A DNA stretch of 64,000 bases from Agromyces mariniharenae (GTDB taxonomy: Bacteria > Actinomycetota > Actinomycetes > Actinomycetales > Microbacteriaceae): assembly GCF_008122505.1 (NCBI RefSeq), contig NZ_VSSB01000002.1, positions 868,001 through 932,000 on the forward strand, read 5' to 3'. Shown in pieces: positions 1 to 63,430 of the stretch (positions within the stretch are counted from its first letter, which is position 1; each line of letters begins with the position of its first letter). Below the pieces are notes generated by a model. That model did not search any database, was not told the DNA's origin, and saw only the letters and a list, made by a program, of their open reading frames with translations. The position numbers and the translations under genes were made by a program.

Positions 1-242
1 CCGCCGACCTCGCGGTCACGGCGGGCAGCGACGCCGAGGTGCGCCTCGGCAAGCGGGCGGTGCTGCGCGACGAGGACGCCGGGGTCATCCGGCTGCATTA
101 CACGGATGCCGCGGTCTTCGCCGACGAGATCGCCGCCTACGGCCCCGAAGTGCGCGTCATCGGTCCCGCGCCGCTGCGCGAGGCGGTACGCGTCCGGCTG
201 GAGGCGGTCGTGGCCGCGCACCGGAACGGGGGAGTCGCGTGA
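1..242 (+). CDS. pafB: PafB-type WYL-domain regulator, C-terminal fragment
   Basis: Only the last 79 or so codons are in the window; the reading frame is open from base 3 and runs off the left edge. The visible residues look like the C-terminal WCX extension of WYL-domain transcription factors, ending in a helix rich in Arg and Val. In actinobacteria PafB and PafC are encoded together, usually next to the Pup-proteasome genes, and form a heterodimer that activates DNA-damage genes independently of LexA. Here the TGA stop at 240-242 touches the ATG of a clear pafC, so the two are translationally coupled. The assignment rests mostly on that neighbour, because the N-terminal HTH and the WYL motif lie outside the window. 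Confidence 0.75.
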   Translation, partial: ADLAVTAGSDAEVRLGKRAVLRDEDAGVIRLHYTDAAVFADEIAAYGPEVRVIGPAPLREAVRVRLEAVVAAHRNGGVA

Positions 243-1237
243 TGGCGAAGCGCCAGAAGCCGCTCAAGGCGCCCGACAAGCTCGTCTTCCTGCTCTCGTT
301 CGTGCCGTACCTGCTCGAGCGGCGTGTCGTCGACGTCTCCGAGGCGGCGCAGCACTTCGGCATGACCGAGGAGGAGATCCGCGACGCCGTGCGGCTCATC
401 GCGACCTCCGGACTGCCGGGGGAGACCGGCACGTACCAGCCGAACGACCTGTTCGACATCGACTGGGACTCGTTCGAGGAGGACGACGTCGTCATCGTCG
501 TGCACCACGTCGCGATCGACGACGCGCCGCGGCTCTCCGCGCGCGAGGCGGCCGCGCTCATCGCCGGGCTGCAGTACCTCTCGGCCTCGCCCGAGAACGC
601 CGGCAGCGCGTCGCTCGCCTCGCTCATGGCGAAGCTGACCGCGGGTGCCTCGGCCGCGCCGAGCCGGCTCGCCGTCGCCGAGACCGAGGCCGACGCGTCG
701 CTCGCGCTGATCCGCGAGGCGGTGGCCGAGGGCCGACAGCTCGAGTTCGACTACCTCAACGCCAGGGGCGAGCGGGGCCGCCGCCGTGCCGATCCGCTGC
801 GGATCATCTCGCAGGACGCGGACTGGTACCTGCAGGCGTACTGCCACACGCGAGAGGACGTGCGGAACTTCCGCGTCGACCGCATGAGCGACCTCGTGCT
901 CACCGACGAGCCGATCGGCGACCACTCGGGTCGCGCGGTGCCCGACACCCTGTTCCAGGGCTCGGAGTCCGACCTCGACGTCATCGTCGACGTCGAGCCG
1001 TCTGCGCTGCCCCTGCTCGCGGACTACCTCGCGGACTCGAGCACGCGCGAGATCGACGGGCGCCTGCGCGTCACGCTGCGGCTCGCGCACGTCCACGGGC
1101 TGAAGCGCCTCGTCGCGGGCCTGCCCGGCCTCGTGACGGTCGTCGCCCCGGCCGAGGCGCGCGCGGCGGTCGCCGAGTGGGCCGCCGCCGGCCTCGCGGG
1201 CTACGGCGACCGCGAGGCATCCGCCGGCCCCCGCTGA
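242..1237 (+). CDS. pafC: PafC, WYL-domain DNA-damage response regulator
   Basis: The 331-residue protein has an N-terminal winged-HTH region (residues 1-65, with the actinobacterial PafC opening KLVFLLSFVPYLL), a middle linker, a WYL domain with the WYL tripeptide at about 195-197 followed by the Arg-rich stretch FRVDRM, and a C-terminal WCX extension. PafBC complexes activate recA and other repair genes in mycobacteria, apparently through a ligand-sensing WYL domain. ATG at 242 is preferred over GTG at 239 because GGGGGAG (228-234) then sits 7 bases upstream as the ribosome binding site. That same heptamer is part of the polar motif set described separately. The gene overlaps the pafB stop by one base. 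Confidence 0.9.
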   Translation: MAKRQKPLKAPDKLVFLLSFVPYLLERRVVDVSEAAQHFGMTEEEIRDAVRLIATSGLPGETGTYQPNDLFDIDWDSFEEDDVVIVVHHVAIDDAPRLSAREAAALIAGLQYLSASPENAGSASLASLMAKLTAGASAAPSRLAVAETEADASLALIREAVAEGRQLEFDYLNARGERGRRRADPLRIISQDADWYLQAYCHTREDVRNFRVDRMSDLVLTDEPIGDHSGRAVPDTLFQGSESDLDVIVDVEPSALPLLADYLADSSTREIDGRLRVTLRLAHVHGLKRLVAGLPGLVTVVAPAEARAAVAEWAAAGLAGYGDREASAGPR

Positions 1238-1358
1238 CGCACTGCTGGAGCGACGCGCGTCGGGCGGGCGGGGGAGCCGCTCGGACCGCGATTGTCTCGC
1301 ATAGGGGGTTCGGCAGGTAGACTGGCCGCACGATCCCCCCGAGAACGGACGAACACCT

Positions 1359-1637
1359 ATGTGGCAAGGCTTCACTGGTTGGCACGCGCTGATCATCCTC
1401 GTGGTCATCCTGCTGCTCTTCGGCGCGCCGAAGCTCCCGGCGCTCGCCCGCAGCCTCGGGCAGTCGATGAAGATCCTCAAGAGCGAGGTCCGTCCCGAGA
1501 AGGACGGAGCGGCGACTGACGCGGAGGCGGCCGACGGCACCACGTCGAGCACCACCGCGACGAGCACTCCGGCGACGTCCGACGTCGCGGGCGGCCAGGC
1601 CAAGACCGACGAGGCCGATACCGGCAAGAGCCGCTGA
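1359..1637 (+). CDS. tatA: Twin-arginine translocase subunit TatA
   Basis: This 92-residue protein has the standard TatA plan: a short periplasmic N-terminus, one membrane helix (about residues 6-21), the FGAPKLP hinge, an amphipathic helix (ARSLGQSMKILKSE) and an acidic, Ser/Thr/Ala-rich tail. TatA oligomers form the passage through which folded twin-arginine substrates cross the membrane after binding to TatC. tatC follows 5 bases later, as in most actinobacteria (order pafBC-tatA-tatC-helY). A TAGACT sequence at 1318-1323 could be a -10 element, but no well-spaced -35 was found. Confidence 0.95.
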   Translation: MWQGFTGWHALIILVVILLLFGAPKLPALARSLGQSMKILKSEVRPEKDGAATDAEAADGTTSSTTATSTPATSDVAGGQAKTDEADTGKSR

Positions 1638-1642
1638 CCCCG

Positions 1643-2440: not shown

Positions 2441-2449
2441 GCTGGAGGG

Positions 2450-4882
2450 GTGGAGACCCTTTCCCCGGCCGAGCGGTACGCGATCTCGCGTGAGCAGCGC
2501 CGCAAGCCCCGCCTCGCCGAGTTCGCCTCACGACTGAAGTTCGACCTCGACCCGTTCCAGCAGGCCGCATGCGCCGCGCTCGACGAGGGCCGCAGCGTCC
2601 TCGTCGCCGCGCCGACGGGCGCAGGCAAGACCGTGGTCGCCGAGTTCGCGGTGTTCCTCGCCATGCAGGAGCCGAAGGCGAAGGTCTTCTACACGACCCC
2701 GATCAAGGCGCTCAGCAACCAGAAGTTCCAGGAGCTCGCCGACGAGTGGGGCGCCGACCAGGTGGGCCTGCTCACGGGCGACACGAACGTGAACTCGGGC
2801 GCGCGCATCGTGGTGATGACCACCGAGGTGCTGCGGAACATGCTCTACGCCGACTCGCCGCTGCTCGACCGCCTCGCCTACGTCGTGATGGACGAGGTGC
2901 ACTACCTCGCCGACCGGTTCCGCGGCGCGGTGTGGGAGGAGGTCATCATCCACCTCCCCGAGGCGGTGCGACTCGTCTCGCTCTCGGCGACCGTGTCGAA
3001 CGCCGAGGAGTTCGGCGACTGGCTGCAGGCCGTGCGCGGCGACACCGACGTGATCGTCTCCGAGGAGCGTCCCGTGCCGCTCGAGCAGCACGTGCTCGTG
3101 AAGGGCAAGCTCCTCGACCTGTTCGACTCGTCGGGCCTCGCGGCCACGAACCGGGTCAATCCCGAGCTGCAGCGCCTGGCGCGCACCGGCGGACGGTCGA
3201 TCTCGTCGCGCTCCGCACGCGGACGGCGCGGGAGCGACCGCGGCCGGTTCCACCAGCAGGGCCAGCCGAGCGGGCGCATCGAGCGCCCCGACGTCGTCGA
3301 CCTGCTGCACGGCAAGCACCTGCTCCCCGCCATCGTGTTCATCTTCTCGCGGGCGGGCTGCGACCAGGCCGTCCGCCAGGTGCTCCGCTCCGGCATCCGG
3401 CTCACCGACACCGAGGAGCGCGACGAGATCCGCGCGATCGTCGAGGAACGGGCCCGGATGCTGCGGGACGAGGATCTCGCCGTGCTCGGCTACTGGGACT
3501 GGATCGAGGGCCTCCAGCGCGGCGTCGCTGCGCACCACGCCGGGATGCTGCCCGCCTTCAAGGAGGTCGTCGAGGAGCTGTTCCAGCTGAAGCTCCTGAA
3601 GGTGGTCTTCGCCACCGAGACGCTGGCGCTGGGCGTCAACATGCCCGCCCGGTCGGTGGTGCTCGAGAAGCTCGAGAAGTTCAACGGCGAGGCGCGCGTG
3701 CCGATCACGCCGGGGGAGTACACGCAGCTCACGGGCCGCGCCGGACGCCGCGGCATCGACGTCGAGGGCCACTCCGTCATCCAGTGGGCCGACGGGCTCG
3801 ACCCCGAGGCGGTCGCCGCGCTCGCGTCGCGTCGCAGCTACCCGCTGAACTCGAGCTTCAAGCCGACCTACAACATGGCCGTCAACCTCATCGACCAGTT
3901 CGGACGCGAGCGCACGCGCCAGATCCTCGAGCTGTCGTTCGCGCAGTTCCAGGCCGACCGCGCGGTCGTCGACCTCGCGCGCACCCTCCGCAAGCAGGAG
4001 GAGTCGATGGCGGGCTACGACGAGGCCATGCGGTGCCACCTCGGCGACTTCGCGGACTACGCCGCGATCCGGCGACGCATCGGCGAGCTCGAGCGCCAGT
4101 CGTCCAAGGGCAATCCGACGCACGCGCAGCGCGAGCGGATGCAGCGCGAGCTCGTCGCGGTGCGCAAGCAGCTGCGGGCGCATCCCTGCCACGGCTGCGC
4201 CGAGCGCGAGCAGCACGCGCGCTGGGCCGAGCGGTGGTGGCGCCTCAAGCAGGAGCACGACCAGCTCTCGCGGCAGATCCGCACCCGAACCGGCCAGGTC
4301 GCGAAGCGGTTCGACCGCGTGACCGAGGTGCTCGAGCAGCTCGGCTACCTCGAGCGCGACGCGAAGGGATCGCTCGTCTCGACGTCGGCGGGCCGTATCC
4401 TGAAGCGCATCTACGGCGAACGCGACCTGCTCGTGGCCGAGTGCCTGCGACAGGGCCTGTGGGACGGCCTCGACGTGCCGTCGATCGCCGCGATGGCGGC
4501 TGCGCTCGTCTACGAGCCGCGCCGCGACGACCGCGGCGTCGACTACCGGATGCCCCGCGGCCGGTTCCGTGCGGCGTTCGACGCGACCACCGACGTGTGG
4601 AGCCGCCTCGACGACCTCGAACGCGACCACCGGCTCACGGGGAGCGACCAGCCGTCGCCCGCGCTGGCCCTCGCCATGCACGCCTGGGCGGGCGGTGCGG
4701 GCCTCGGCACCGTGCTCGACGACACCGACCTCGCGGCCGGCGACTTCGTGCGCCTGACCAAGCAGGTGGTCGACCTGCTCGACCAGGTCTCGATCGTCGC
4801 CGACGCCGAGCTCGGCGCGACTGCGCGGGCGGCGATCGACGCCGTGCGGCGCGGCGTGGTGGCCTACGGGTCGGTCGCGTGA
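2450..4882 (+). CDS. helY: HelY, Ski2-like DEAD/DEAH-box RNA helicase
   Basis: An 810-residue superfamily 2 helicase. Motif I (APTGAGKT) is at about 54-61, motif II (DEVH) at 148-151, motif III (SAT) soon after, and motif VI (QLTGRAGRRG) at about 426-435. The C-terminal third is the DSHCT-type domain typical of Ski2/Mtr4 proteins. A basic Arg/Ser-rich insertion (about residues 240-280) separates the two RecA-like domains and includes the run SRSARGRRG. Mycobacterial HelY is encoded at the same place after tatC. The start is the GTG 9 bases after the tatC stop. The gene contains one GGGGGAG polar motif, which encodes Gly-Glu in the segment TPGEYT. Confidence 0.92.
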   Translation: METLSPAERYAISREQRRKPRLAEFASRLKFDLDPFQQAACAALDEGRSVLVAAPTGAGKTVVAEFAVFLAMQEPKAKVFYTTPIKALSNQKFQELADEWGADQVGLLTGDTNVNSGARIVVMTTEVLRNMLYADSPLLDRLAYVVMDEVHYLADRFRGAVWEEVIIHLPEAVRLVSLSATVSNAEEFGDWLQAVRGDTDVIVSEERPVPLEQHVLVKGKLLDLFDSSGLAATNRVNPELQRLARTGGRSISSRSARGRRGSDRGRFHQQGQPSGRIERPDVVDLLHGKHLLPAIVFIFSRAGCDQAVRQVLRSGIRLTDTEERDEIRAIVEERARMLRDEDLAVLGYWDWIEGLQRGVAAHHAGMLPAFKEVVEELFQLKLLKVVFATETLALGVNMPARSVVLEKLEKFNGEARVPITPGEYTQLTGRAGRRGIDVEGHSVIQWADGLDPEAVAALASRRSYPLNSSFKPTYNMAVNLIDQFGRERTRQILELSFAQFQADRAVVDLARTLRKQEESMAGYDEAMRCHLGDFADYAAIRRRIGELERQSSKGNPTHAQRERMQRELVAVRKQLRAHPCHGCAEREQHARWAERWWRLKQEHDQLSRQIRTRTGQVAKRFDRVTEVLEQLGYLERDAKGSLVSTSAGRILKRIYGERDLLVAECLRQGLWDGLDVPSIAAMAAALVYEPRRDDRGVDYRMPRGRFRAAFDATTDVWSRLDDLERDHRLTGSDQPSPALALAMHAWAGGAGLGTVLDDTDLAAGDFVRLTKQVVDLLDQVSIVADAELGATARAAIDAVRRGVVAYGSVA

Positions 4883-4912
4883 ACGGCCGGGATCGTCGCC
4901 TAGGCTGAGCTG

Positions 4913-6469
4913 GTGCCCGAGAACGACCCGCGTCCGCTGCTGCCGTTGTGGGTCGCACTCCTCGCCGCGATCGCCGGTGGGCTCCTCTACGACCTCGGGT
5001 TCCCGGGCGCCGGCATCTGGCCGCTCGCCTTCGTCGGGATCGCGCTCGCGCTCGTCAGCCTGATCGGCCGCAGCGGCTGGTCGGCCGCGCTCGTCGGCTT
5101 CGCGTTCGGCGTGGCGTTCTACCTGCAGCAGGTGTCGTGGACGGCGCTGTACCTCGGGCCGGTGCCCTGGCTCGCCCTGTCGATCTTCGAGTCGTTCTTC
5201 GTCGCGGGCGGCGCCGTGCTCATCACGCTCGCCTACCGCTGGGTGCCACGGGCGAGCTCATCGCGGTGGGTGCGCCTCATCTGGCTCCCGTTGCTCGTTG
5301 CGGGGCTGTGGTGCGTGCGCGAGGCGGCCACGGGCACCATTCCCTACGGCGGATTCCCGTGGGGCCGTGCCGCGCAGAGCCAGTCGGAGAGCCCGTTCGC
5401 CGATGTCGTGTCGTGGGTCGGGTCGACCGGCCTGTCGTTCATCATGGTCGCGCTCGTGGCCGGGGTCATCGAATGGGTGCGCCTGCGTGGCTGGCAGGAC
5501 CTGCGCTCCGCGGTGCCGGTGGCGGCGCTGGCGCTCGTGGCGATCCTCGTGCCGGCGTGGCCGACCACGACGACGGGGGAGCTGCGCGTGGCGAGCGTCC
5601 AGGGCAACGGTCCGGCCGGGTACTTCGACGAGCGCGAACCCGGCGACGTGCTCGAGGCCCAGCTCGAGGCGACCGAGCCGATCCTCGACGAGCCCGACAT
5701 CGACGTGCTGCTCTGGCCCGAGGGCGGGTCGGACATCGACCCGACACGCAGCCCCGACGTCGCAGACATCTTCGACGATCTCAGCGAGCAGCTCGACGCG
5801 CCCGTCGTGCTCAACACGGTGACCACGAACGGCGCGGAGTTCTTCAACACGTCGCTGCTCTGGCGCGCCGGTGAGGGCGCGGTCGCGAGCTACGACAAGC
5901 GCAACCCGGTGCCGTTCGGCGAGTACATCCCCGACCGCTGGTTCTACGACGCGATCGCGGGCGACCTCACCGGGCTCATCCAACGTGGCTACACCCCGGG
6001 CACGAACCCGCCGGTGTTCGACCTCGGCGACGCGGTGACGGGCCTGGCGATCTGCTTCGACGTGATCTACGACGAGCTCATCTGGGAGGGCGCGCGCGAC
6101 GGCGCCGACCTCTACATGTTCCAGACGAACAACGCCGACTTCCGTGGCACCGACGAGAACCAGCAGCAGCTGGCGATCGCGCGCCTGCGCGCCATCGAGA
6201 CGGGCCGGTCGGTCGTGAACATCTCCACGGTGGGCACGAGCCAGGTGATCGACCCGAGCGGGCGCACCATCGACGCGCTGCCGGCCTACGAGCCGGGCGC
6301 CATGGTCACCGACGTGGAGTTGCGCGAGGGCCTCACGCCCTCGGTCGTGCTCGGCGGCGCGGTCCCGCTGCTCATCGTCTCGGGATCGCTCGGCGGACTC
6401 ATCGCCGCAGGCGTGATCACGCGACGTTCACGTCGCGAGGTCGTCGGGGAGGGTGACGGCGAGGGCTAG
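4913..6469 (+). CDS. lnt: Apolipoprotein N-acyltransferase
   Basis: The 518-residue protein has about six N-terminal membrane helices, a carbon-nitrogen hydrolase domain and a last C-terminal helix. The Glu-Lys-Cys triad is visible at about E270 (LLWPEGG), K329 (SYDKRNPVPFGEY) and C381 (LAICFDVIY). Lnt transfers a third acyl chain to the N-terminal cysteine of lipoproteins at the outer face of the membrane; lipoproteins such as CtaC in this window are plausible substrates. It starts with GTG at 4913, 30 bases after helY. Its TAG stop overlaps, on the opposite strand, the TAG of rbpA through the shared palindrome CTAG (6466-6469). Confidence 0.93.
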   Translation: MPENDPRPLLPLWVALLAAIAGGLLYDLGFPGAGIWPLAFVGIALALVSLIGRSGWSAALVGFAFGVAFYLQQVSWTALYLGPVPWLALSIFESFFVAGGAVLITLAYRWVPRASSSRWVRLIWLPLLVAGLWCVREAATGTIPYGGFPWGRAAQSQSESPFADVVSWVGSTGLSFIMVALVAGVIEWVRLRGWQDLRSAVPVAALALVAILVPAWPTTTTGELRVASVQGNGPAGYFDEREPGDVLEAQLEATEPILDEPDIDVLLWPEGGSDIDPTRSPDVADIFDDLSEQLDAPVVLNTVTTNGAEFFNTSLLWRAGEGAVASYDKRNPVPFGEYIPDRWFYDAIAGDLTGLIQRGYTPGTNPPVFDLGDAVTGLAICFDVIYDELIWEGARDGADLYMFQTNNADFRGTDENQQQLAIARLRAIETGRSVVNISTVGTSQVIDPSGRTIDALPAYEPGAMVTDVELREGLTPSVVLGGAVPLLIVSGSLGGLIAAGVITRRSRREVVGEGDGEG

Positions 6470-7669: not shown

Positions 7670-7674
7670 GCGGC

Positions 7675-8643: not shown

Positions 8644-9113
8644 TGCGGGGTGCTCCTCTCAACGGGCACGACGACGGCCGTCGCACCATCGATGCCCGTG
8701 ACGAGCACGCGCTCGCCCACGGCGACATCCGCCTGCTCGGTGATGGGGGAGAGGCGCGCCGTCCACACCTCGCCGTTCTGGAGGCGGACCTGGCCACCCA
8801 CGGGTGTCACCGTGCGCACGACCGCGCCGTCGGCGCCGATGAGCGCGTCGATGTTGCTGCGCGCGGGATCGCCGCCGCGCCTGAGCAGCCGCAGCAGCGA
8901 CGGTCGGAGCGTGAGGATGAGGGCCACGGCCACCACCGCGGCGATGATGAACTGCGCCCACCACGGGATGCCGAACAGCCCTGAGAGCAGGCCGGCGACG
9001 CTGCCGAGCGCGAGCATGAGGAACGTCATCTCGAGCGTGAAGACCTCGATGGTCGCGAACACGAGGATCAGGACGAGCCAGACGATCCATGCGTACTGCG
9101 TCAGCACATCCAA
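8640..9113 (-). CDS. NfeD-family membrane protein
   Basis: A 157-residue short-form NfeD with three to four membrane helices in residues 1-75 and a C-terminal OB-fold domain (about 85-150) containing the characteristic GADGAVVRTVTPVGGQVR pattern. It lacks the N-terminal ClpP-like protease domain of long NfeD. It is the usual partner of the SPFH protein directly downstream. The start is TTG at 9113, supported by AAGGAG 8 bases upstream; the ATG at 9118 is in another frame. A GGGGGAG polar motif (8745-8751) lies inside this gene on the opposite strand, so its orientation follows the replichore and not the gene. Confidence 0.88.
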   Translation of the reverse strand: MDVLTQYAWIVWLVLILVFATIEVFTLEMTFLMLALGSVAGLLSGLFGIPWWAQFIIAAVVAVALILTLRPSLLRLLRRGGDPARSNIDALIGADGAVVRTVTPVGGQVRLQNGEVWTARLSPITEQADVAVGERVLVTGIDGATAVVVPVERSTPQ

Positions 9114-12916: not shown

Positions 12917-15295
<2,379 letters not shown>

Positions 15296-15433
15296 CCCGC
15301 GGTTCGGTGCACCGGCATGCGGCAGCCGAGGTGACACGCAAGGGAAGACAACGTCGCGAACTCGGAGCATACTGGCGGTCGGGCGCTGCCCGGGCGATCA
15401 CGGGCGGGCCATTGCATCGGGGGAGGATGTCGT

Positions 15434-15918: not shown

Positions 15919-16863
15919 ATGAGCTGGCGTCTGGCGATCCACGCGGCGGTCGCGGCATCCGTGGCCGTCGTCGGGCTGACCGGCGCCGTCCCGCAGCCGA
16001 GCGCCGTCCCGCAACCGGGTGCGTTCATTCGCGTGACGCCGGGTGCGGTCGATGACGCCGTCAACGGCAACTGCTCACTGGTGGAGGCGATCATCGCAGC
16101 GAACACCGATGCGCCGCGCGACGCGTGCCGGGCGGGCGACGGTGCCGACACCCTGCAGGCGGCGGGCCGTTTCGTACTCACCGAAGTTCCCGCCGGCTCG
16201 TCGAGCCGAACGGGCCTGCCCACCGTCACGAGCGGCCTCACCATCGTCGACGCGAAGATCTCGAGAACCACGGATGCCCCGGCCTTCCGAATCCTCCAGG
16301 TTGCGAACGGGGGAGCGCTGACGATGCTGAACGGCAGCATCAGCGGGGGGAGTGCGGTCGACTGCCCCGATGGAGGTGCGGCGATCTGCGCCGGCGGCAT
16401 CCTCAATCTCGGCACCCTGACGCTGGTCGACAGTCGCGTGTTCGAGAACACCGCGGCGGGCAGCGGATCGATCGTCGGCGGAGCCGGGATCGTCAACGGC
16501 GGCACGGCCTCGTTCATCAACTCGATCGTGCGCGACAACCTCGCCGCGGGTGACACCGCAGCGGTCGGCGGCGGCATCACGAACAACACCGGGGCGAGCC
16601 TGTCGCTCGTCAACAGCGCGCTCCGCGGCAATTCGTCGGTCGGTCCCACGGGTGGCGTCGCCGTCGGCGGTGGCCTCGCGAATTTCGGCACGGCGTCGCT
16701 CACCACCAGTCGCGTGCAGCACAACGCCGTCAGCGCGCCCGGGGGAACCGCCACCGGTGGCGGCATCTACCAGGAGAACGCGGTGACGACACTTCGGCTC
16801 ACTCGCGTGAACGGGAACGAGCCGAACGACTGCCAGCCGGCGATCGCGGCCATCTGCGGGTGA
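15919..16863 (+). CDS. Secreted right-handed beta-helix protein with CSLREA-like motif
   Basis: A 314-residue protein with an N-terminal signal or anchor segment (about residues 1-24), a CSLREA-type motif (NGNCSLVEAIIAAN) and then a repetitive Gly/Asn/Ser/Thr-rich region. The repeats have the pattern N-x-G-T-x-x-L/F-x-N/D-S-x-V/L followed by GGG(I/L), as in parallel beta-helix polymorphic outer proteins and pectate-lyase-like folds. Such proteins are exported and often surface-attached. No LPXTG or C-terminal membrane helix is seen; the protein ends AICG. The start at ATG 15919 gives the signal segment. Two GGGGGAG motifs (16309 and 16346) fall in this gene. Confidence 0.8.
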   Translation: MSWRLAIHAAVAASVAVVGLTGAVPQPSAVPQPGAFIRVTPGAVDDAVNGNCSLVEAIIAANTDAPRDACRAGDGADTLQAAGRFVLTEVPAGSSSRTGLPTVTSGLTIVDAKISRTTDAPAFRILQVANGGALTMLNGSISGGSAVDCPDGGAAICAGGILNLGTLTLVDSRVFENTAAGSGSIVGGAGIVNGGTASFINSIVRDNLAAGDTAAVGGGITNNTGASLSLVNSALRGNSSVGPTGGVAVGGGLANFGTASLTTSRVQHNAVSAPGGTATGGGIYQENAVTTLRLTRVNGNEPNDCQPAIAAICG

Positions 16864-17985: not shown

Positions 17986-18013
17986 AGCGCCGATAATGCA
18001 CATTATGTCGGTT
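17986..18013. other. dif: dif-like XerC/XerD recombination site (probable chromosomal dif)
   Basis: The 28 bp have the dif plan: an 11-base XerC-side arm AGCGCCGATAA, a 6-base centre TGCACA and an 11-base XerD-side arm TTATGTCGGTT. From memory, the published actinobacterial dif consensus has the core CCGATAAT, two variable bases, then ACATTATGTC. This site matches that core completely and differs at the outer ends. The arms are imperfect inverted repeats, as expected. The GGGGGAG heptamer changes strand on either side of this site, which supports its being the terminus dif and not a mobile-element scar. Confidence 0.85.
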
Positions 18014-18192: not shown

Positions 18193-18774
18193 TCACGCCG
18201 TGGATGGGATCCCTGCTCGCCCGCTCCCCTCCGGGGAGAGCACGCGGTAGCGGAGGTGGGTCTCGCCGGCGAACGCCGAGGTCTCGAGGCGCTCCAGGTC
18301 GATGCGCTGTCCCAGGCCGGCGAACAGGGAGATGCCGCCGCCGAGCAGGATCGGCACGATGTCGAGGTGGAGCTCGTCGACGAGTCCACGTTCGAGGCAC
18401 TGCCTCGAGATGCTGCCGCCCAAGAGGCTGACCCACTTGTCCCCCGCCGCCGCCTTGGCGGACTCGACCGCCTGCTCGATGTCGTCGACCACGAAGGTGT
18501 ACGTGATGCCGTCCCGCTCCACGGGTTCGTGCGCGCTCCGGGTCATCAGGAACACCGGGACCTTCAGCATTCCCCCGTACGGCACTTCGCCGTCCTCGAT
18601 GGTCTGCGTCCGGTTCGCTCCCCCGACCACCGCGCCGATCTCGTCCATGACCCGCCGTACGACCACTTCGTCCTCAGGAGCCGCCGGAACGTCGAACATC
18701 CAGTCGATCCCCCCATCCGCGTCGGCCATGAAGCCGTCGAGTGTCACGGTCGCGTGAACGATGACGCGTGCCAT
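18193..18774 (-). CDS. Dihydrofolate reductase-like (RibD C-terminal domain) protein
   Basis: The 193-residue protein has the RibD_C/DHFR fold: MARVIVHATVTLDGFMADADGG at the N-terminus, VVGGANRT near residue 50, and the NADPH-binding LLGGSISRQCLERGLVDELHLDIVPILLGGG in the C-terminal half. Such stand-alone proteins are annotated as dihydrofolate reductase family, but their substrates are mostly unknown. ATG at 18774 is preferred, with AAGGAGG upstream; GTG at 18777 is too close to it. It is divergent from a TetR gene across a 101-base region with two palindromic operators, so it is very likely the regulated target. No partner gene follows. Confidence 0.9.
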   Translation of the reverse strand: MARVIVHATVTLDGFMADADGGIDWMFDVPAAPEDEVVVRRVMDEIGAVVGGANRTQTIEDGEVPYGGMLKVPVFLMTRSAHEPVERDGITYTFVVDDIEQAVESAKAAAGDKWVSLLGGSISRQCLERGLVDELHLDIVPILLGGGISLFAGLGQRIDLERLETSAFAGETHLRYRVLSPEGSGRAGIPSTA

Positions 18775-21046: not shown

Positions 21047-21112
21047 GGGCCCGATGGTACGCCCGCTCCCCCGAGGCACGCCAGCATCCGCGCCGGCTCG
21101 TAGGGTGGTGGC

Positions 21113-25340: not shown

Positions 25341-25347
25341 CCATCCG

Positions 25348-48518: not shown

Positions 48519-49771
48519 TCCGCTCCCGAGAGTCCGAGGTGAGCGCGCGTGCGGCGCATGGCGTCGGCCGAGAAGACGATGGTCTTCACGCCGTTCGACG
48601 GCGACGGCGCCGCGAGGAAGTCGTCGAGCGCGCGACCGAGGTCGGTCTCCACCCGATCGATCTCGACGCCGTCGTACGCGAGCATGAGCGCGGCCTCGTG
48701 GGCCTTGGAACCGCTGACGATCGCCACACGGCCGAGCGACGAGGCATCCGTGGGCCAGAAGTAGGAGGGGTCGCGCACGTCGGAGCCGATCGCGAACAGG
48801 ATCTGCTCGGTACCCGGCTCGATGCTGTCGACGTTGAGCTGGTAGCTGGCGGGGTTCTGCACGAGGACGAACTCGACGTCCTGGTCGCGCACCCGCACGC
48901 GCTCGCCGCGGCCGAAGACGGCCGGGATGGCGCTCAGCGCGTCGGCGGCGGTCGTCGGCGAGAACCGCTCCCCCAGCACCGCCTTCGCGGTGGCGTACGC
49001 GGCGGCCGCGTCGACGGCGTAGTGCGTGCCGCGGGCGGGCAGCCCGATGTCGACGGATGCCGCGCCGTCGCGCAGCACCGCGGACGCGCCGCTCGCCGAC
49101 TCCACCACCACGCCGGCCTCGGGCGCGAGGCGCTCGGGAGCCGTCTCGGTGTAGCCGAGGCCGCGCGGCGAGCGTCGGAGCACGTCGGCGGCGACACCGT
49201 AGCGATGCACGGCGACGCCCGGCGCGGTCGCCGCAGCGAGGCGCTCGAGGTACGCGTCGTCGGCGTTCACGACGACGGCCTCGTGGGCGCGCGCGGCGAT
49301 GCGGCCCAGCATGCCGGCGACCATCTCGGAGTCGTGGAAGCGGTCGATCTGGTCGACCATGACGTTGGTCAGCGCGACGACGCGCGCGTCGACCCCCTGC
49401 ATGACGAGCGCGCCGTGCCCCTCGTCCATCTCGAGCACGGCCACGTCGCCGGGTACTCGGCCCTGCCAGTCGGCTCGCTCGAGGAGCGCGGACGTGAGGC
49501 CCTGGCTGATGTTCGCGGTCGAGGGGTTCGTGAACACGTCGACGCCGTGCGCACGCAGGATCGCGACCAGCATCTTCGTGGTCGTCGACTTGCCGCTCGA
49601 ACCCGAGACCACCACGAGGCCCTGCGGGAAGCCCGAGAGCGTGCGCTTCAGGTACCCCGGCGCGATGCGGTTGACGACGAGGCCGGGAACAGCCGATCCG
49701 CCGCCGGGCTTGCGCAGCCGGGCGGCGAATCGGGTGAGCCTGCCGACGAGGATCGCCGGCGCGTAGCGCAC
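48515..49771 (-). CDS. murT: MurT-like Mur ligase without zinc ribbon
   Basis: The 418-residue protein is a Mur-ligase homologue with the P-loop VSGSSGKSTTTKML (about residues 56-69), the Mur middle domain (ALTNVMVDQIDRFHD), the MurT-specific LVQNPASYQLNVDSI and a C-terminal DUF1727 domain. Known MurT proteins have a four-cysteine zinc ribbon inserted in the middle domain; here the corresponding stretch (about 195-230) has no Cys, and neither has the rest of the protein. MurT activates the alpha-carboxyl of D-Glu in lipid II by phosphorylation for amidation. GTG 49771 lies 7 bases after the sigA stop, so murT-gatD are probably cotranscribed with sigA. Confidence 0.88.
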   Translation of the reverse strand: MRYAPAILVGRLTRFAARLRKPGGGSAVPGLVVNRIAPGYLKRTLSGFPQGLVVVSGSSGKSTTTKMLVAILRAHGVDVFTNPSTANISQGLTSALLERADWQGRVPGDVAVLEMDEGHGALVMQGVDARVVALTNVMVDQIDRFHDSEMVAGMLGRIAARAHEAVVVNADDAYLERLAAATAPGVAVHRYGVAADVLRRSPRGLGYTETAPERLAPEAGVVVESASGASAVLRDGAASVDIGLPARGTHYAVDAAAAYATAKAVLGERFSPTTAADALSAIPAVFGRGERVRVRDQDVEFVLVQNPASYQLNVDSIEPGTEQILFAIGSDVRDPSYFWPTDASSLGRVAIVSGSKAHEAALMLAYDGVEIDRVETDLGRALDDFLAAPSPSNGVKTIVFSADAMRRTRAHLGLSGAE

Positions 49772-52564: not shown

Positions 52565-54037
52565 ATGAACCTCCCCGTGCTCTCCGTCTCCCCCGCCCCC
52601 GCCGCCGAGTCCCGCGCCGACGCCGTGCTGCTCGCCGCGAGGAGCGGCGCCGACGGCGCCGAGCTGCTCGCGGTCGACGGGTTCGGGTGGGTGCCCGCCG
52701 CGCTGGCGGCGCTCGGCGCGAAGGGCACGGCCGAGGAGGTCGTCAAGGTCCCCGGTCCCGAGGGCGGGCCGCGCCTGGTCGTCGTGGTGGGCACGGGCGA
52801 CGCAGCGGATGCCGCGGCGCTCCGCCTCGCGGCCGGCAGCGCGGTGCGACAGCTCACCGGCGTGGCGACCCTCGCCGTCGCGATCCCGGCCGACGACGCC
52901 GAGGACGCCGCGGCGATCCTCGAGGGTGCGGCGCTCGGCGCCTACGCCTACACCAACTACAAGGCGAAGCCGAAGGCGCCCGTCGAGGAGATCACGCTGC
53001 ACTCCTCGCTCGACGCCGATGCCGTCGGGCTCGACCGGGTCCGCGCCGTGACGGCGGCGGTCGCGCGCACCAAGGACCTCGTCAACACGTCGCCCGCCGA
53101 GCTCTTCCCCGCGCGCCTGGCCGAACTCGCCGTCGAAGCGGCGAGCGGTGCCGGCGTCGCGGCGAAGGTCTGGGACGAGGAGGCCCTCGCCGCCGACGGC
53201 TTCGGCGGCATCCTCGCCGTCGGGCAGGGCTCGAGCCGCGGGCCGAGGCTCGTGCGCCTCGAATACGCGCCGGCCGGGGCATCCGTGCACCTCGCGCTCG
53301 TCGGCAAGGGCATCACGTTCGACTCGGGCGGGCTCTCGATCAAGCCCATGGCGTCGATGGTGGGCATGAAGACCGACATGGCCGGCGCGGCGGCGGTGCT
53401 CTCGGCCATCGTCGCGCTCGCGGAGCTGCAGGTGCCCGTGCGCGTGACCGGATGGCTCTGCCTCGCCGAGAACCTGCCGTCCGGCACCGCCGTGCGGCCC
53501 AACGACGTGCTGCGGATCCACGGCGGCACGACGGTCGAGGTGCTGAACACCGACGCGGAGGGGCGCCTCGTGCTCGCCGACGGGCTCGTCGCGGCAAGCG
53601 AGGAGCAGCCCGACGCCATCGTCGACGTCGCGACCCTGACGGGTGCGCAGGTCGTGGCGCTCGGCCACCGGATCGCCGGGCTGATGGGCGACGACGAGCT
53701 CGTCGCGACGGTCCGCGCCGCAGCCGACGCGGTCGCGGAACCCACCTGGCCCATGCCGCTCCCAGCCGACCTGCTCGCCCTCCTCAAGTCCGACGTCGCC
53801 GACCTCGCGAACACCAAGCTCGGTCAGACCGTTCCGGGAATGCTCCTGGCGGGCGTCTTCCTGCGCGAGTTCGTCGGCACGCGGGAGGACTCCGAGGAGC
53901 GGATCCCGTGGGCGCACCTCGACATCGCGGGGCCCTCGAACAACGCCGGAGGGCCCTGGGGATTCACCGGCAGCGGCGCCACCGGAGCCGCCGTCCGCAC
54001 GCTCGTCAAGCTGGGCGAGCAGCTCGCCGAAGGGTAG
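52565..54037 (+). CDS. pepA: Leucyl aminopeptidase (M17)
   Basis: The 490-residue protein is an M17 zinc aminopeptidase. The catalytic domain carries LVGKGITFDSGGLSIKP, MKTDMAGAAAVL and the signature NTDAEGRLVLADGL, with the Lys, Arg and metal-binding Asp/Glu residues all present. The N-terminal macro-like domain is less conserved. It forms hexamers in the cytoplasm and removes N-terminal residues from peptides. The neighbours lpd-sucB-lipB-lipA repeat the mycobacterial order pepB-dlaT-lipB-lipA. ATG 52565 has no strong ribosome binding site. Confidence 0.95.
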   Translation: MNLPVLSVSPAPAAESRADAVLLAARSGADGAELLAVDGFGWVPAALAALGAKGTAEEVVKVPGPEGGPRLVVVVGTGDAADAAALRLAAGSAVRQLTGVATLAVAIPADDAEDAAAILEGAALGAYAYTNYKAKPKAPVEEITLHSSLDADAVGLDRVRAVTAAVARTKDLVNTSPAELFPARLAELAVEAASGAGVAAKVWDEEALAADGFGGILAVGQGSSRGPRLVRLEYAPAGASVHLALVGKGITFDSGGLSIKPMASMVGMKTDMAGAAAVLSAIVALAELQVPVRVTGWLCLAENLPSGTAVRPNDVLRIHGGTTVEVLNTDAEGRLVLADGLVAASEEQPDAIVDVATLTGAQVVALGHRIAGLMGDDELVATVRAAADAVAEPTWPMPLPADLLALLKSDVADLANTKLGQTVPGMLLAGVFLREFVGTREDSEERIPWAHLDIAGPSNNAGGPWGFTGSGATGAAVRTLVKLGEQLAEG

Positions 54038-54134: not shown

Positions 54135-55508
54135 TTGTCCGAGCAGAACTTCGACATTGTCATCCTCGGAGGCGGCAGCGGAGGGTACGCAGCGGCGCTG
54201 CGGGCCGTCGAGCTGGGCTTCACCGTCGGCCTGATCGAGAAGGACAAGCTCGGAGGCACGTGTCTCCACCGCGGCTGCATCCCGACGAAGGCGCTGCTGC
54301 ACGCCGCCGAGATCGCCGACAACTCGCGTGAGTCGGCCCGCTTCGGCGTCCGCTCGACCTTCGAGGGCATCGACGTCCCCGCCGTGACGCAGTACCGCCA
54401 GAGCATCGTCGCCAGCAAGTTCAAGGGCCTGCAGGGCCTCGTCAAGGCCCGCGGCATCACCGTGATCGAGGGCGAGGGCCGCCTCGTCGCCGCCAACGCC
54501 GTGCAGGTCGGCGACGACCGCATCGTCGGCAAGAACGTCATCCTCGCGACCGGCTCGTACTCGCGTTCGCTCCCCGGCCTCGAGATCGGCGGCCGCGTGA
54601 TCACCAGCGAGCAGGCGCTCGAGCTCGACTTCGTGCCCGGCAAGGTCGCCGTGCTCGGCGGCGGCGTCATCGGGGTCGAGTTCGCGAGCGTCTGGAAGTC
54701 GTTCGGCGCCGAGGTCACCATCATCGAGGCGCTCCCCCACCTCGTGCCCAACGAGGAGGAGTCGGTCTCGAAGCAGCTCGAGCGCGCGTTCCGCAAGCGC
54801 GGCATCGACTACAAGCTCGGCGTGCGCTTCCAGGGCGTGACGCAGAACGACCAGGGCGTCGTCGTGACGCTCGAGAACGGCGAGACCGTCGAGGCCGAGC
54901 TGCTGCTCGTCGCCGTCGGCCGCGGCCCCGCGACGCAGGGCCTCGGCTACGAAGAGGTCGGCGTCACGATGGACCGCGGATTCGTCATCACGAACGAGCG
55001 CCTCGCGACCAACCTGCCGAACGTCTACGCCGTCGGCGACATCGTCCCCGGCCTCCAGCTCGCGCACCGCGGCTTCCAGCAGGGCATCTTCGTCGCGGAG
55101 GAGATCGCGGGCCTCAACCCGATCGTCGTCGAGGACGTCAACATCCCCAAGGTCACGTACTGCGAGCCCGAGGTGGCCTCGATCGGCTACACCGAGGCGC
55201 GCGCCGCCGAGAAGTTCGGCGCCGACCAGGTCTCGTCGTACGAGTACAACCTCGCCGGCAACGGCAAGAGCCACATCCTCGAGACGAGCGGCTCGATCAA
55301 GGTGGTGCGCGTGAACGACGGTCCCGTGGTCGGCGTGCACATGATCGGCGCCCGCGTCGGCGAGCTGATCGGCGAGGCCCAGCTCGCCGTGAACTGGGAG
55401 GCGTACCCCGAGGACATCGCCCCGTTCATCCACGCCCACCCGACCCAGAACGAGGCGCTGGGCGAGGCGTTCCTCAAGCTCGCCGGCAAGCCGCTGCACG
55501 CGCTCTGA
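54135..55508 (+). CDS. lpd: Dihydrolipoyl dehydrogenase
   Basis: The 457-residue flavoprotein starts at TTG 54135 (SEQNFDIVILGGGSGGY), which has AAGGGAG 7 bases upstream; upstream in-frame codons lack family similarity. The redox disulphide is in GGTCLHRGCIPTKA, the NAD site is GGGVIGVEFAS, the second FAD motif is YAVGDIVPG, and the catalytic His-Glu is in HAHPTQNEALGEAF. It is the E3 of 2-oxo acid dehydrogenase complexes and probably serves the SucB encoded 66 bases downstream. A CTCCCCC motif (54732) encodes ALPHL. Confidence 0.96.
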   Translation: MSEQNFDIVILGGGSGGYAAALRAVELGFTVGLIEKDKLGGTCLHRGCIPTKALLHAAEIADNSRESARFGVRSTFEGIDVPAVTQYRQSIVASKFKGLQGLVKARGITVIEGEGRLVAANAVQVGDDRIVGKNVILATGSYSRSLPGLEIGGRVITSEQALELDFVPGKVAVLGGGVIGVEFASVWKSFGAEVTIIEALPHLVPNEEESVSKQLERAFRKRGIDYKLGVRFQGVTQNDQGVVVTLENGETVEAELLLVAVGRGPATQGLGYEEVGVTMDRGFVITNERLATNLPNVYAVGDIVPGLQLAHRGFQQGIFVAEEIAGLNPIVVEDVNIPKVTYCEPEVASIGYTEARAAEKFGADQVSSYEYNLAGNGKSHILETSGSIKVVRVNDGPVVGVHMIGARVGELIGEAQLAVNWEAYPEDIAPFIHAHPTQNEALGEAFLKLAGKPLHAL

Positions 55509-57161: not shown

Positions 57162-58834
57162 TCGAACACCTCGCGCAAGCGCCAACCGGCCTCGCCCCTC
57201 ACCATGAGGAGCGAGGCCGGTTCGCGTTCGGGGGTCGCTCGGGCGCGCACCAGCACGGCGCCGCCCATCTCGGCCACGACCTCGACGGTGGCCGGGTCGA
57301 ACTCCGTCTGCGGAAGCGCCTCGCCGTCGCGTGCGGCGACCAGGGCGGCTCGATCCGACGCCTCGATCGCCGAGCCCGGCTGCACGACCGTGCCCAGGCA
57401 GGCGAGGTCGAGTGCCGCGAAGCACTCCGCGCGTCGACCGAGCAGGTCGCGTGCGGCGGCCACGACGCCGTCGGGAGGGCTCTCGCCGAGATCGTCCACC
57501 GACGATGGCGGTGCGGCGGCCTCGGTCTCGGGAGTCCCCGACGGTTCCTCGGCCGGACCGTCGGCCCTCCGCTCCCCGATCACAGGATCCTCGCCCGCGA
57601 CCGGCTCCCCCGCTGAGCCGCCAGACGCTTCAGCCACACGGCCGCCGTCGGCGCCGGCGGGCGGCACGAGCGTGAGCATCGTCACGAGCGTTGCCCCGCC
57701 CAGCAGCGCACCCACGGCGACCGCTCGGCCGCGGGCTCGGATGAGGCCCGTGAGGCGTTTCCGACCGTCCGCTACCCGGTCGACGTCGGCCGCCGCGGCG
57801 AACTGCTCGATGACGCCCTCGGGCGCCTGGGCGAGCGCGAGCCACCGCCGCAATCCGGTGCCGACCATCCCGCCTGCTGTCCGGGGCGCCGCCGCCGCCA
57901 TCGTTGCTCCAGCACGCTCCTCCTCCGTCAGGGGAACGGTCGGCGGCATCACTCGGCCGGGCAGCCGGCGCGGGCTCGCCGCAGTGGCGACCTCCCGCAC
58001 GGGCTCGGGCGTCGCCAGTTCGAACAGTCGACGCTCGAGCTCGGCCTCGCACGGCGCGAACGGACGGACGGCGAGCCGCGCGCGAACGAGCTCGATCGCC
58101 TCGCCGAGCGCACCGGGCGGCATCACGGCGGCGGCCACGTCCTCGACGAGATCGGCCAGGCGCTCGTGGGCGACGCGACGGAGCGCCGTGCGTTCGGCGC
58201 CGTGGTCGGACATGCGCCGCAGGGCGCCGAGCCCCAGGAGGCGCGGACGACCGGCGTCGTCGAAGACGATGTCGCTCACGGCGAGGCGCGTGTGCGCGTA
58301 CCCCCGCGAAGCGAGGTCGCCGACGGCGACCACGATCGGCGCGAGGATCGTGACGGCCTCCCCGGCAGTGATCGTGCGAGCAGAGAGCGTCCGCGCGAGC
58401 GAGCCGCCGCCGAGCCGCTCCACCACGACGCAGCAGCGCCCGTCGGGCAGCGTCGCCACGTCGTGGAGCCGCGGGAGCGCGCCCGCGGCATCCGTCGACA
58501 TCGCCTCGAGCTCGCACGCGATCGCGGCGTCGTCGGCCTCGGCGTCGTAGACGCGGAGAACCACGAGCGCCGGCACGCCGTGCGCTCCACCTGCGACACC
58601 GGTCGAACCACCTGCGACATCGGTCGACCGGCCCGCGGGCTCGCCGCCGTCGCGGCCGGTCGGCACGGGCCGACCGACCGCAGCGAGGTAGACGTCGGCC
58701 CGATCGCCCGACGCGATGCGGCGGATCAGCCGGTAGCCCACGAGCCTGCCGTCGAGGGGTGCCGCGTCGACGATGCGATCGCTCGATTCGCGGATGCGCT
58801 CGGTGCGGCGCTCGCGGCGCGATCGACGGCTCAT
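57158..58834 (-). CDS. Membrane-anchored pseudokinase-like protein
   Basis: The 558-residue protein has a protein-kinase-like N-terminal domain (about 30-270), one membrane helix (about 371-390), a Pro/Glu/Ser-rich stretch and a C-terminal extracellular domain of about 110 residues. Kinase landmarks have decayed: the Gly-loop is [12 protein letters not shown], the ATP-binding Lys is Arg94 (VVLRVYD), [12 protein letters not shown] (181-192) replaces HRDLKxxN, and GLG (201-203) replaces DFG. Catalysis is thus unlikely. The plan resembles PknB-type sensors, suggesting a scaffold or signal-binding role. ATG 58834 lacks a ribosome binding site; ATG 58933 is an alternative start. It lies between sucB and lipB. 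Confidence 0.8.
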
Positions 58835-61430: not shown

Positions 61431-61865
61431 CTACGCCCGGGTCAGCACCGTGCCGGCGAGCTTGTCGTGGACCCCGCGCTGGTCGGAGTCCCAGACGACC
61501 GCCGGGATCACGAGGACGAGCAGCAGCGTGCGCACGACCGGGCGCCACGGGCCGACCCAGCCGCCGGCGATGGGCACGACCCGCAGGCCGACGATGCGGT
61601 GGCCGACGCTGCCGCCGATGGTGGGGATGAAGAGCACCTGCATGAGAGCGAAGATGCCGAGGGTGATCCACGAGAACACCGCAGAGTCGTACGGCGCGAA
61701 CAGCAGCGCGATGAGCATCGCCGCCGCCCAGTCGATGGCGATCGCGGCGATGCGGCGGCCGACGCGGCCGACCGATCCGGGCCCGGAATCGGGGAGCCCG
61801 AGCCGCTCCCCCGGCCACCGGCTGGGTTCGAGGCCGCCGGAGGTTCGGGGTTTCGCGTCAGGCAC
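61431..61865 (-). CDS. RDD-family membrane protein
   Basis: The 144-residue protein has the RDD family signature: GRRIAAIAIDWAAAM (the Arg and Asp that name the family), PTIGGSVGHRIVGLRVV and the third box DSDQRGVHDKLAGTVL. Three membrane helices fit between the boxes. Its function is unknown; some RDD proteins transport compatible solutes or ions. It starts at GTG 61865, divergent from glnA across 140 bases that hold the GlnR-type site. The convergent DUF4191 gene ends 61 bases away. Confidence 0.9.
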   Translation of the reverse strand: MPDAKPRTSGGLEPSRWPGERLGLPDSGPGSVGRVGRRIAAIAIDWAAAMLIALLFAPYDSAVFSWITLGIFALMQVLFIPTIGGSVGHRIVGLRVVPIAGGWVGPWRPVVRTLLLVLVIPAVVWDSDQRGVHDKLAGTVLTRA

Positions 61866-61893
61866 CCGACGAGTCTACCGAGCCCGCCTGCGC

Positions 61894-61931
61894 GTAACAT
61901 GGCGGAAACATTCGCGTCACGGTCGGGAAAC
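61894..61931 (+). promoter_or_regulatory. GlnR-type nitrogen-regulation box upstream of glnA
   Basis: Four pentamers follow each other with exactly six bases between: GTAAC (61894-61898), GAAAC (61905-61909), GTCAC (61916-61920) and GAAAC (61927-61931). This is the a-b-a-b layout of actinobacterial GlnR boxes (gTnAC, n6, GaAAC, repeated). It ends 74 bases before the glnA ATG. Confidence 0.85.
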
Positions 61932-62005
61932 GGCGACTCGCTAGCGTCGGGTACGGCTGTCGACGTCCGTCCGGTCCCACTCGCCCCTCTTGGAGATTCC
62001 GACAC

Positions 62006-63430
62006 ATGTTCAGTGATTCGTCTGAAGTGCTCAAGTTCATCAAGGAGACGGATGTCAAGTTCCTCGACATCCGCTTCACCGACCTTCCGGGCGTGCAGCA
62101 GCACTTCAACATCCCGGCGTCGACCGTCGACGAGGAGTTCTTCACGGTCGGCCAGCTCTTCGACGGATCGTCGATCCGCGGCTTCGCCTCGATCCACGAG
62201 TCGGACATGCAGCTGATCCCGGATGTCTCCACCGCCTACGTGGACCCCTTCCGCGCCGAGCGCACGCTCGTGATGGTCTTCGACATCTACAACCCGCGCA
62301 ACGGCGAGATCTACGGCAAGGACCCGCGCCAGGTCGCCAAGAAGGCCGAGAAGTACCTCGCATCCACGGGCATCGCCGACACGGCGTTCTTCGCGCCCGA
62401 GGCCGAGTTCTACATCTTCGACGACGTGCGCTACGAGGTGAAGCAGAACGCGAGCTTCTACTCGGTCGACTCCAGCGAGGGCGCCTGGAACTCGGGCCGC
62501 GAGGAGGAGGGCGGCAACCTCGCCAACAAGACGGCGTACAAGGGCGGCTACTTCCCCGTCTCCCCCGTCGACCAGCACGCCGACCTGCGCGACGACATCG
62601 TGCTCAAGCTCATCGACGCGGGCCTCGAGGTCGAGCGCTCGCACCACGAGGTCGGCACCGCCGGCCAGGGCGAGATCAACTACAAGTTCGACACGATGGT
62701 GCACGCCGCCGACGACATCCTGAAGTTCAAGTACATCGTCAAGAACACCGCCAACGAGTGGGGCAAGACGGCCACGTTCATGCCGAAGCCGCTCTTCGGC
62801 GACAACGGCTCGGGCATGCACACCCACCAGTCGCTCTGGAACGAGGGCAAGCCCCTGTTCTACGACGAGGCGGGCTACGGCGGCCTCTCCGACATCGCGC
62901 GCTGGTACATCGGCGGCATCCTGCGACACGCCCCGGCGCTGCTCGCCTTCACGAACCCGACGGTGAACTCCTACCACCGCCTCGTGCCGGGCTTCGAGGC
63001 TCCCGTGAACCTCGTCTACTCGGCAGGCAACCGCTCGGCGGCGATCCGCATCCCGATCACGGGCACCAACCCCAAGGCCAAGCGCATCGAGTTCCGGGCG
63101 CCGGATGCCTCGGGCAACCCCTACCTCGCCTTCGCCGCGCAGCTCATGGCCGGCCTCGACGGCATCAAGAACCGCATCGAGCCGCACGAGCCCGTCGACA
63201 AGGACCTCTACGAGCTCCCGCCCGAGGAGGCGAAGTCGATCCCCCAGGTGCCGGGTTCGCTCGACGCCGTGCTCGACGCACTCGAGGCCGACCACGACTT
63301 CCTCCTCGAGGGCGGCGTGTTCACCAAGGAGCTCATCGAGACCTGGATCGACTACAAGCGCGAGAAGGAGCTGAAGCCGCTGGCCCAGCGCCCCCACCCG
63401 TTCGAGTACGAGCTCTACTACGGCGTCTAG
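62006..63430 (+). CDS. glnA: Glutamine synthetase type I
   Basis: The 474-residue GSI-beta enzyme starts [34 protein letters not shown]. The Glu metal ligands lie in [11 protein letters not shown] and [20 protein letters not shown]- and glutamate-site residues in [12 protein letters not shown] and [11 protein letters not shown], and the adenylylation Tyr402 in [12 protein letters not shown]. The enzyme makes glutamine from glutamate and ammonia and is probably turned down by GlnE. Transcription is likely GlnR-controlled through the box at 61894-61931. A CTCCCCC motif (62560) encodes VSPV. A strong hairpin lies 70 bases after the stop. Confidence 0.97.

Follow-up and report, generated by a model that had tools for sequence, protein, structure and literature searches.

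Architecture imparting sequences (AIMS) are defined as short sequences whose abundance and strand bias both increase toward the terminus of replication (PMC5993296; this and the other papers are cited here from excerpts). In Corynebacterium aurimucosum, two such words, G(A/T/C)GGGGGA and (T/C)GGGGGAG, which together count 856 copies on the leading and 61 on the lagging strand, were used in 2010 to find dif (PMC2830990, where they are credited to Hendrickson and Lawrence 2006), and the same use was made of them in C. resistens (PMC3350403) and C. variabile (PMC3219685); the string GGGGGAG also occurs in PMC3164646 and PMC3022926. In Escherichia coli, the FtsK-orienting polar sequences (KOPS) are thought to be contacted by three gamma domains at GGG, NA, and GGG, respectively (PMC5357621). 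Here we deal with a stretch of 64,000 nucleotides of the Agromyces mariniharenae chromosome (C2:868001-932000, hereafter the window), in which an initial annotation made from the sequence had pointed out the heptamer GGGGGAG as a candidate KOPS or AIMS directed toward a dif-like site and had held it to be undescribed, a view that the corynebacterial papers contradict. We conclude that GGGGGAG is very probably the KOPS of this chromosome, and probably of many other Actinomycetota, to which FtsK would bind.

The 29 copies of GGGGGAG in the window converge without exception on dif, whose core lies at 17,991-18,009 (Table 1). The 10 copies on the left, with starts from 228 to 16,346, are all on the + strand, and the 19 copies on the right, with starts from 18,618 to 62,560, are all on the - strand, which reproduces the count of the initial annotation; the octamer CGGGGGAG occurs 7 times on + left of dif and 15 times on - right of it. 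As a look-elsewhere control, every heptamer pair represented 20 times or more in the window (937 pairs) was examined at all switch points, and GGGGGAG was the sole pair found to be fully polar at any of them; the runners-up at dif overlap it (CGGGGGA, 25/26; GGGGAGC, polarity 0.73, n=30). According to a home-made gene caller based on simple codon usage, 14 copies are located in genes that run along the motif direction, 9 in opposed genes, and 6 outside called genes, so the polarity does hold, as had been stated, in genes of both directions and between genes. It had also been proposed that coding copies are written either with the glycine codon GGG or as Ser-Pro TCC-CCC, codons that would otherwise be uncommon. 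Both statements stand in part: 14 of the 23 coding copies use GGG and 7 use TCC-CCC, but the two copies at 29,466 and 54,732 use neither, and while GGG (2,633 of 15,618 Gly codons in the training open reading frames) and TCC (1,859 of 10,944 Ser codons) may be called uncommon, CCC accounts for 4,068 of 10,324 Pro codons.

Table 1. Copies of GGGGGAG and the dif site in the window (positions within the 64,000 nucleotides).
Feature	Position	Strand	Remark
GGGGGAG	228..234	+	toward dif; outside called genes
GGGGGAG	418..424	+	toward dif
GGGGGAG	1270..1276	+	toward dif; outside called genes
GGGGGAG	3712..3718	+	toward dif
GGGGGAG	5575..5581	+	toward dif
GGGGGAG	8745..8751	+	toward dif; within opposed gene
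GGGGGAG	15007..15013	+	toward dif
GGGGGAG	15419..15425	+	toward dif; outside called genes
GGGGGAG	16309..16315	+	toward dif
GGGGGAG	16346..16352	+	closest copy on left of dif
dif, 28 bp	17986..18013	+	core CGATAATGCACATTATGTC at 17,991-18,009; motif polarity flips here
GGGGGAG	18618..18624	-	closest copy on right of dif
GGGGGAG	19699..19705	-	toward dif
GGGGGAG	21066..21072	-	toward dif; outside called genes
GGGGGAG	21685..21691	-	toward dif; within opposed gene
GGGGGAG	24388..24394	-	toward dif; outside called genes
GGGGGAG	27959..27965	-	toward dif
GGGGGAG	28211..28217	-	toward dif; outside called genes
GGGGGAG	29466..29472	-	toward dif; within opposed gene
GGGGGAG	32861..32867	-	toward dif; within opposed gene
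GGGGGAG	33948..33954	-	toward dif; within opposed gene
GGGGGAG	38795..38801	-	toward dif
GGGGGAG	40889..40895	-	toward dif
GGGGGAG	41664..41670	-	toward dif; within opposed gene
GGGGGAG	48968..48974	-	toward dif
GGGGGAG	52588..52594	-	toward dif; within opposed gene
GGGGGAG	54732..54738	-	toward dif; within opposed gene
GGGGGAG	57605..57611	-	toward dif
GGGGGAG	61806..61812	-	toward dif
GGGGGAG	62560..62566	-	toward dif; within opposed gene

The dif core is the single match of CGATAATNNACATTATGTC in the genome, both exactly and with one mismatch allowed, and 23 of the 28 bases of the whole site, counted by eye, are identical to the dif suggested for Frankia alni (quoted in PMC3025954). The genome of A. 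mariniharenae comprises 4,082,539 bp in three contigs, with dif at C2:886,000 and dnaA at C1:1,710,922; if the contigs close into a circle, the two arms from dnaA to dif measure 2,025,392 and 2,051,618 bp, the contig order being taken from motif polarity and the third contig (C3, about 5.5 kb) being ignored. Judged by its sequence, the site fits the actinobacterial dif type, which is present once per chromosome and approximately opposite the origin, and recombination by XerCD is predicted to occur there.

The bias extends well beyond the window. Over the whole genome, GGGGGAG counts 330 copies on + and 453 on - (223 and 198 for the reversed word), and CGGGGGAG counts 212 and 272 (71 and 60 for the reversed word). 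Among the matches listed for contig C1, which appear to come one strand first, the + strand bears 19 copies of GGGGGAG over the 1.71 Mb to the left of dnaA and 81 over the 0.84 Mb that follow, and CGGGGGAG is found at least 100 times on - and once on + within C1:1-768,332. We then consider a sample of 40 stretches of 20 kb which, together with the window, amounts to 863,972 bases, all read along the leading strand. GGGGGAG occurs there 164 times on the leading and 19 times on the lagging strand and ranks first by z among 8,178 heptamer pairs and first by leading fraction among the 3,985 pairs with n>=30, while CGGGGGAG (115:6) is first by z among 26,857 octamer pairs and by fraction among 7,297 (n>=30). 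Two of the checks proposed in the initial annotation, a per-strand comparison with heptamers of equal composition and a measure of density near the terminus, came out in its favor. All other heptamers with six G and one A are weaker, that is GGGGAGG (97:43), GGGAGGG (64:37), GGAGGGG (60:37), GAGGGGG (46:37), GGGGGGA (18:10), and AGGGGGG (9:7). From the origin to dif, the successive fifths of the arms hold 19:12, 13:3, 20:1, 28:2, and 84:1 right-way to wrong-way copies; the leading density climbs 3.3-fold from 0.095 to 0.318 per kb and that of wrong-way copies falls from 0.060 to 0.004 per kb. This enrichment at the terminus is the strongest among the 3,315 heptamers that occur 60 times or more, density correlates with position over 42 stretches (Spearman rho 0.67), and the rise from the origin fifth to the terminus fifth is seen in both the right arm (from 6 copies over 100 kb to 40 over 118 kb) and the left arm (from 13 over 100 kb to 44 over 146 kb).

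With its excess on the leading strand and with abundance and bias both rising toward the terminus, GGGGGAG is an AIMS, as had been anticipated, and its polarity is opposite on either side of dnaA and of dif; of the two switches expected, the one at dif is perfect and the one at the origin is blurred. E. coli Chi is short and G-rich, and it is conceivable, if very unlikely, that GGGGGAG is a Chi-like sequence that regulates a double-strand-break repair nuclease and is biased to the leading strand for the repair of broken forks. Chi is indeed named among simple strand-biased sequences, but AIMS, unlike Chi, gain abundance and bias toward the terminus (PMC5993296), and GGGGGAG gains both; in addition, wrong-way copies are nearly gone near dif, even within genes.

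One may also wonder whether the pattern simply follows from mutation bias linked to replication, from codon usage, or from the orientation of genes, since other words are leading-biased as well (e.g., GGCAAG, 275:146). Base skew was ruled out as a cause because G and C are nearly equal on the leading strand of the sampled genome (0.3603 and 0.3575), and the weakness of the same-composition heptamers argues in the same direction. The influence of coding was assessed by shuffling synonymous codons within called genes in 100 rounds, a procedure that keeps the protein and the codon counts and loses codon-pair context. In the terminus-proximal part (the last 40% of the arms), co-directional genes contain 51 right-way copies for 27.5 expected (standard deviation 5.1) and 0 wrong-way copies for 32.0, head-on genes contain 41 for 30.2 (standard deviation 4.5) and 1 for 15.2, and the count outside or at the edges of genes is 20:2. 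The dif flanks of 29 Agromyces relatives display the same picture, with 128 right-way for 42.2 expected and 0 wrong-way for 24.4 in co-directional genes, 99 for 33.0 and 1 for 18.1 in head-on genes, and 118:0 outside genes. In the origin-proximal part (the first 40%), co-directional genes hold 15 right-way copies for 20.5 expected and 3 wrong-way for 18.1, head-on genes 11 for 18.2 and 6 for 9.9, and the regions outside genes 6:6. Right-way copies therefore exceed expectation only toward the terminus, where wrong-way copies are nearly eliminated, and the elimination is less pronounced near the origin. These results indicate that, whatever the direction of the gene, wrong-way copies are selected against and, close to dif, right-way ones are favored. 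Codon usage and gene direction as causes are ruled out by the shuffles, within the loss of codon-pair context already mentioned, and a by-product that persists in head-on genes, through synonymous shuffles, and outside called genes seems extremely improbable, even if the same origin-proximal shuffles suggest that G runs are avoided in genes generally.

The shape of the motif was drawn from the 345 convergent copies found in the relatives. The base that precedes the G run is C in a fraction of 0.63 and T in 0.25, and the other flanking positions carry little information, so that the preferred form is (C/T)GGGGGAG. Polarity is largely lost upon most single substitutions. The variants that keep much of it in the relatives are AGGGGAG (51:2), GGGAGAG (72:8), and GGAGGAG (104:24), together with the changes at the last position, GGGGGAA (28:7), GGGGGAC (53:7), and GGGGGAT (28:4); the corresponding values in terminus-proximal DNA of A. 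mariniharenae itself are 23:3 for AGGGGAG, 22:18 for GGGAGAG, 66:40 for GGAGGAG, and 11:2, 19:7, and 23:6 for the last-position changes. The E. coli consensus GGGNAGGG is present in few copies in the window (8, of which 7 are convergent and 1 divergent), and a further, weaker signal of the E. coli type may exist besides GGGGGAG. As the main motif, this consensus was rejected, in view of the weaker bias of GGGAGGG and GGGGAGG and of its own sum of 44:28 over 20 Actinomycetota genomes.

How far the motif is shared was examined first among relatives with an exact dif match, of which 40 out of 42 were used (29 Agromyces and 11 genomes of other families in the order). The Agromyces flanks mostly extend some 10 kb to either side of dif; over all the genomes examined, six flanks are cut short by contig ends and five more are short because dif is close to a contig end. 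GGGGGAG is the top heptamer of the Agromyces pool, unprompted, with 345 convergent copies for 1 divergent, and again the top heptamer in the other families (90:2); named records that overlap partly with the same genomes give 101:1 for 17 Agromyces and 47:1 for 10 Agrococcus. Within the 29 Agromyces relatives, copies approach dif to 30 bp on one flank and to 273 bp on the opposite flank. At the scale of the phylum, 46 of 298 sampled genomes match dif with no more than one mismatch, and the other 252 were excluded; the 46 comprise the genome of A. mariniharenae and 4 genomes already included above, 28 newly tested, and 13 left out. The first 20 newly tested genomes sum to 139:7. A second set of fifteen, composed of 7 of these 20 (6 with longer flanks) and 8 new ones, is led by G222 (20:0), G292 (20:0), G119 (21:2), G338 (17:1), G144 (14:0), and G304 (11:0), followed by G303 (9:2), G117 (6:1), G253 (6:0), G174 (6:0), and G116 (4:1). 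Taken at their longest flanks, the 28 genomes sum to 232:14 and convergent copies outnumber divergent ones in 25, nine of which rest on six copies or fewer. In total, polarity at dif was assessed in 69 genomes (that of A. mariniharenae, 40 relatives, and 28 of the phylum sample), and the suggestion that GGGGGAG would be a motif of this lineage proves too narrow, as it also converges on dif in most other testable Actinomycetota. A separate observation concerns G338 and G303, in which TGGGAG is likewise convergent beside GGGGGAG (52:5 and 32:5); the general G skew toward dif in these two genomes (0.078 and 0.046) may contribute to it.

GGGGGAG inverts its polarity at dif in a genome that encodes an FtsK gamma domain, as a KOPS does, and the gamma domain is predicted to bind the motif and thereby to orient loading and translocation. 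A single match to PF09397 (FtsK gamma) was found in the genome (81.2 bits for a cut-off of 30.6), and against solved structures (E<=0.001) it retrieves three distinct FtsK sequences only (2j5o; 2ve8 with 2ve9; 2iut), which we take to be from Pseudomonas aeruginosa, 2ve9 presumably being the complex with KOPS. From an alignment with the solved domain, in which the E. coli residue numbering is assumed, we infer that the counterparts of E. coli R1300, E1303, and E1306 are R, D, and E in Agromyces. These three E. coli residues matter in KOPS recognition (PMC2680272). The motif FAKAGRLMD is found in 23 of 24 gamma rows of the same class, the exception being one of two copies in a single genome, and the helix takes the forms FARAGR, YTRAGR, or others in deeper lineages. 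In the most probable reading, the gamma winged-helix domain of the single FtsK would bind GGGGGAG, the hexameric motor would thereby be loaded facing dif, and it would pump the terminus trapped in the septum up to its encounter with XerCD at dif. Copies in the wrong orientation would be purged because FtsK would then load away from dif. The motif could instead be a terminus-directed AIMS read mainly by another protein, such as a loader or unloader of the SMC type or a protein of replication or repair. We find this improbable, for the switch coincides with dif, the site of FtsK action, and copies come as close as 30 bp to it, the word is short, G-rich, and polar like the KOPS of E. coli, and a canonical FtsK gamma is present. 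Altogether, the other reader, the Chi-like site, and mutation bias explain less than the recognition of GGGGGAG by FtsK. A broader proposal, for which 46 of the 298 phylum genomes were testable and 28 of these newly tested, is that most Actinomycetota use one FtsK loading word, (C/T)GGGGGAG, and have retained with it an almost invariant gamma recognition helix (F-A-K/R-A-G-R-L-M-D, present in the class and in certain deeper lineages), wrong-way copies near dif being almost wholly purged even in protein-coding genes; we give it even chances. The word is unlike GGGNAGGG and may mean that the three gamma domains sit on DNA in another register.

Several results weigh against the KOPS interpretation. 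The origin fifth of the right arm holds 6 right-way versus 10 wrong-way copies (13:2 in the left arm) and the interval 9-29 kb right of dnaA (C1:1720001-1740000) holds 0 versus 4, so that the reversal of polarity near the origin is either blurred or displaced to the right of dnaA. The shortfall of right-way copies near the origin implies that part of the wrong-way deficit may stem from a general avoidance of G runs, and the argument for selection accordingly rests on the contrast between orientations. Among the first 20 phylum genomes, taken as single 20-kb flanks, GGGGGAG ranks first among heptamers in 4 and within the first six in 7, and the E. coli consensus is itself mildly convergent in the sum given above. 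Within the set of fifteen, G254 (1:2), G323 (0:1), and G130 (0:0) are without convergence and G224 (4:2) has hardly any, all four having been retrieved through one-mismatch dif matches. Lastly, the near identity of the helix in the same class leaves little covariation to be used, which makes the link between gamma and motif correlative, and convergence persists where the helix differs (YTRAGRLIDMLE in G144, G338, and G303). Clean covariation between gamma and motif was rejected, since gamma domains of the YTRAGRLIDMLE type coexist with convergent GGGGGAG and, in the genomes without convergence, dif was matched with one mismatch; no joint change of motif and gamma helix was found in the 38 genomes compared. 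It is worth mentioning that FtsK gamma of G224 and G254 carries RALS in place of RKLR ahead of the recognition helix; in these two genomes, either the guide motif has changed or the dif-like site is not dif.

As for the neighborhood of dif, the adjoining genes encode a cupin (16860-17375), a RibD C-terminal (reductase-like) protein (18193-18777), a TetR-family regulator (18876-19511), and a patatin-like phospholipase (19551-20492). Among the eight proteins searched against Pfam, none belongs to the Xer or FtsK family and two are without any match. A 792-amino-acid protein (12917-15295) matches the ABC ATPase family PF00005 at residues 503-711 and resembles a short UvrA-like protein. By the look of the translations, 21937-26973 is a putative glycerol/dihydroxyacetone cluster with DhaM-, DhaL-, and DhaK-like genes on the - strand followed by genes for a GlpF-like channel and a glycerol kinase-like protein on the + strand.

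No paper linking GGGGGAG to FtsK was found in the literature searched, most subscription papers lying outside its scope, and a description may exist elsewhere; the two papers that contain both terms treat other subjects, judging by title and abstract. Papers that mention FtsK together with KOPS and Actinobacteria (PMC11898615, PMC3025954, PMC13342612, and PMC5993296) do not quote the motif in the parts examined; the main text of a mycobacterial FtsK paper (PMC13277299) and the corynebacterial FtsK text (PMC11898615) refer, in the sections consulted, to KOPS in general and to no word starting with GGG, and for Microbacterium no paper with KOPS or dif was among the matches listed. What is new here is the presence of GGGGGAG in Agromyces and in most other testable Actinomycetota, its gradient, its polarity at dif in many genomes, and selection at the level of codons. 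With (C/T)GGGGGAG as a defined word, the directionality of FtsK becomes open to direct tests in Actinomycetota; the word also offers a simple dif locator and a check for assembly or inversion errors in high-GC genomes that show hardly any GC skew, and it provides a strong case of DNA-level selection overriding codon choice.

Set beside the described systems, the Corynebacterium AIMS are the closest, with the same octamer, the same leading-strand bias, a polarity change that marks dif, and a published (T/C) before the G run that agrees with the preference measured in our relatives, although their published use is that of a dif landmark without link to FtsK. The KOPS of E. coli (PMC2680272, PMC5357621) are, like GGGGGAG, short and G-rich with one A, directed toward dif, commoner near it, and associated with FtsK gamma, whereas GGGGGAG has five G before the A and one after it and falls outside the GGGNAGGG consensus. 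When the same method is applied to a 40-kb stretch of E. coli holding dif, GGGNAGGG gives 9:0 and GGGGGAG 1:1. The SpoIIIE recognition sequences (SRS) of Bacillus subtilis differ in sequence from GGGGGAG. They too are leading-strand words, of 8 nucleotides, and the gamma domain that reads them belongs to the same family (PMC4744071, PMC5357621). In Lactococcus lactis, the KOPS (Nolivos 2012, described in PMC5357621) illustrates that the guide motif varies between lineages, as gamma domains do, but it is an A-rich heptamer, while GGGGGAG is G-rich and shared far beyond one genus. GGGGGAG is thus a real, strongly selected, terminus-pointing motif, described earlier in a related genus, and a clear new example of a known phenomenon.

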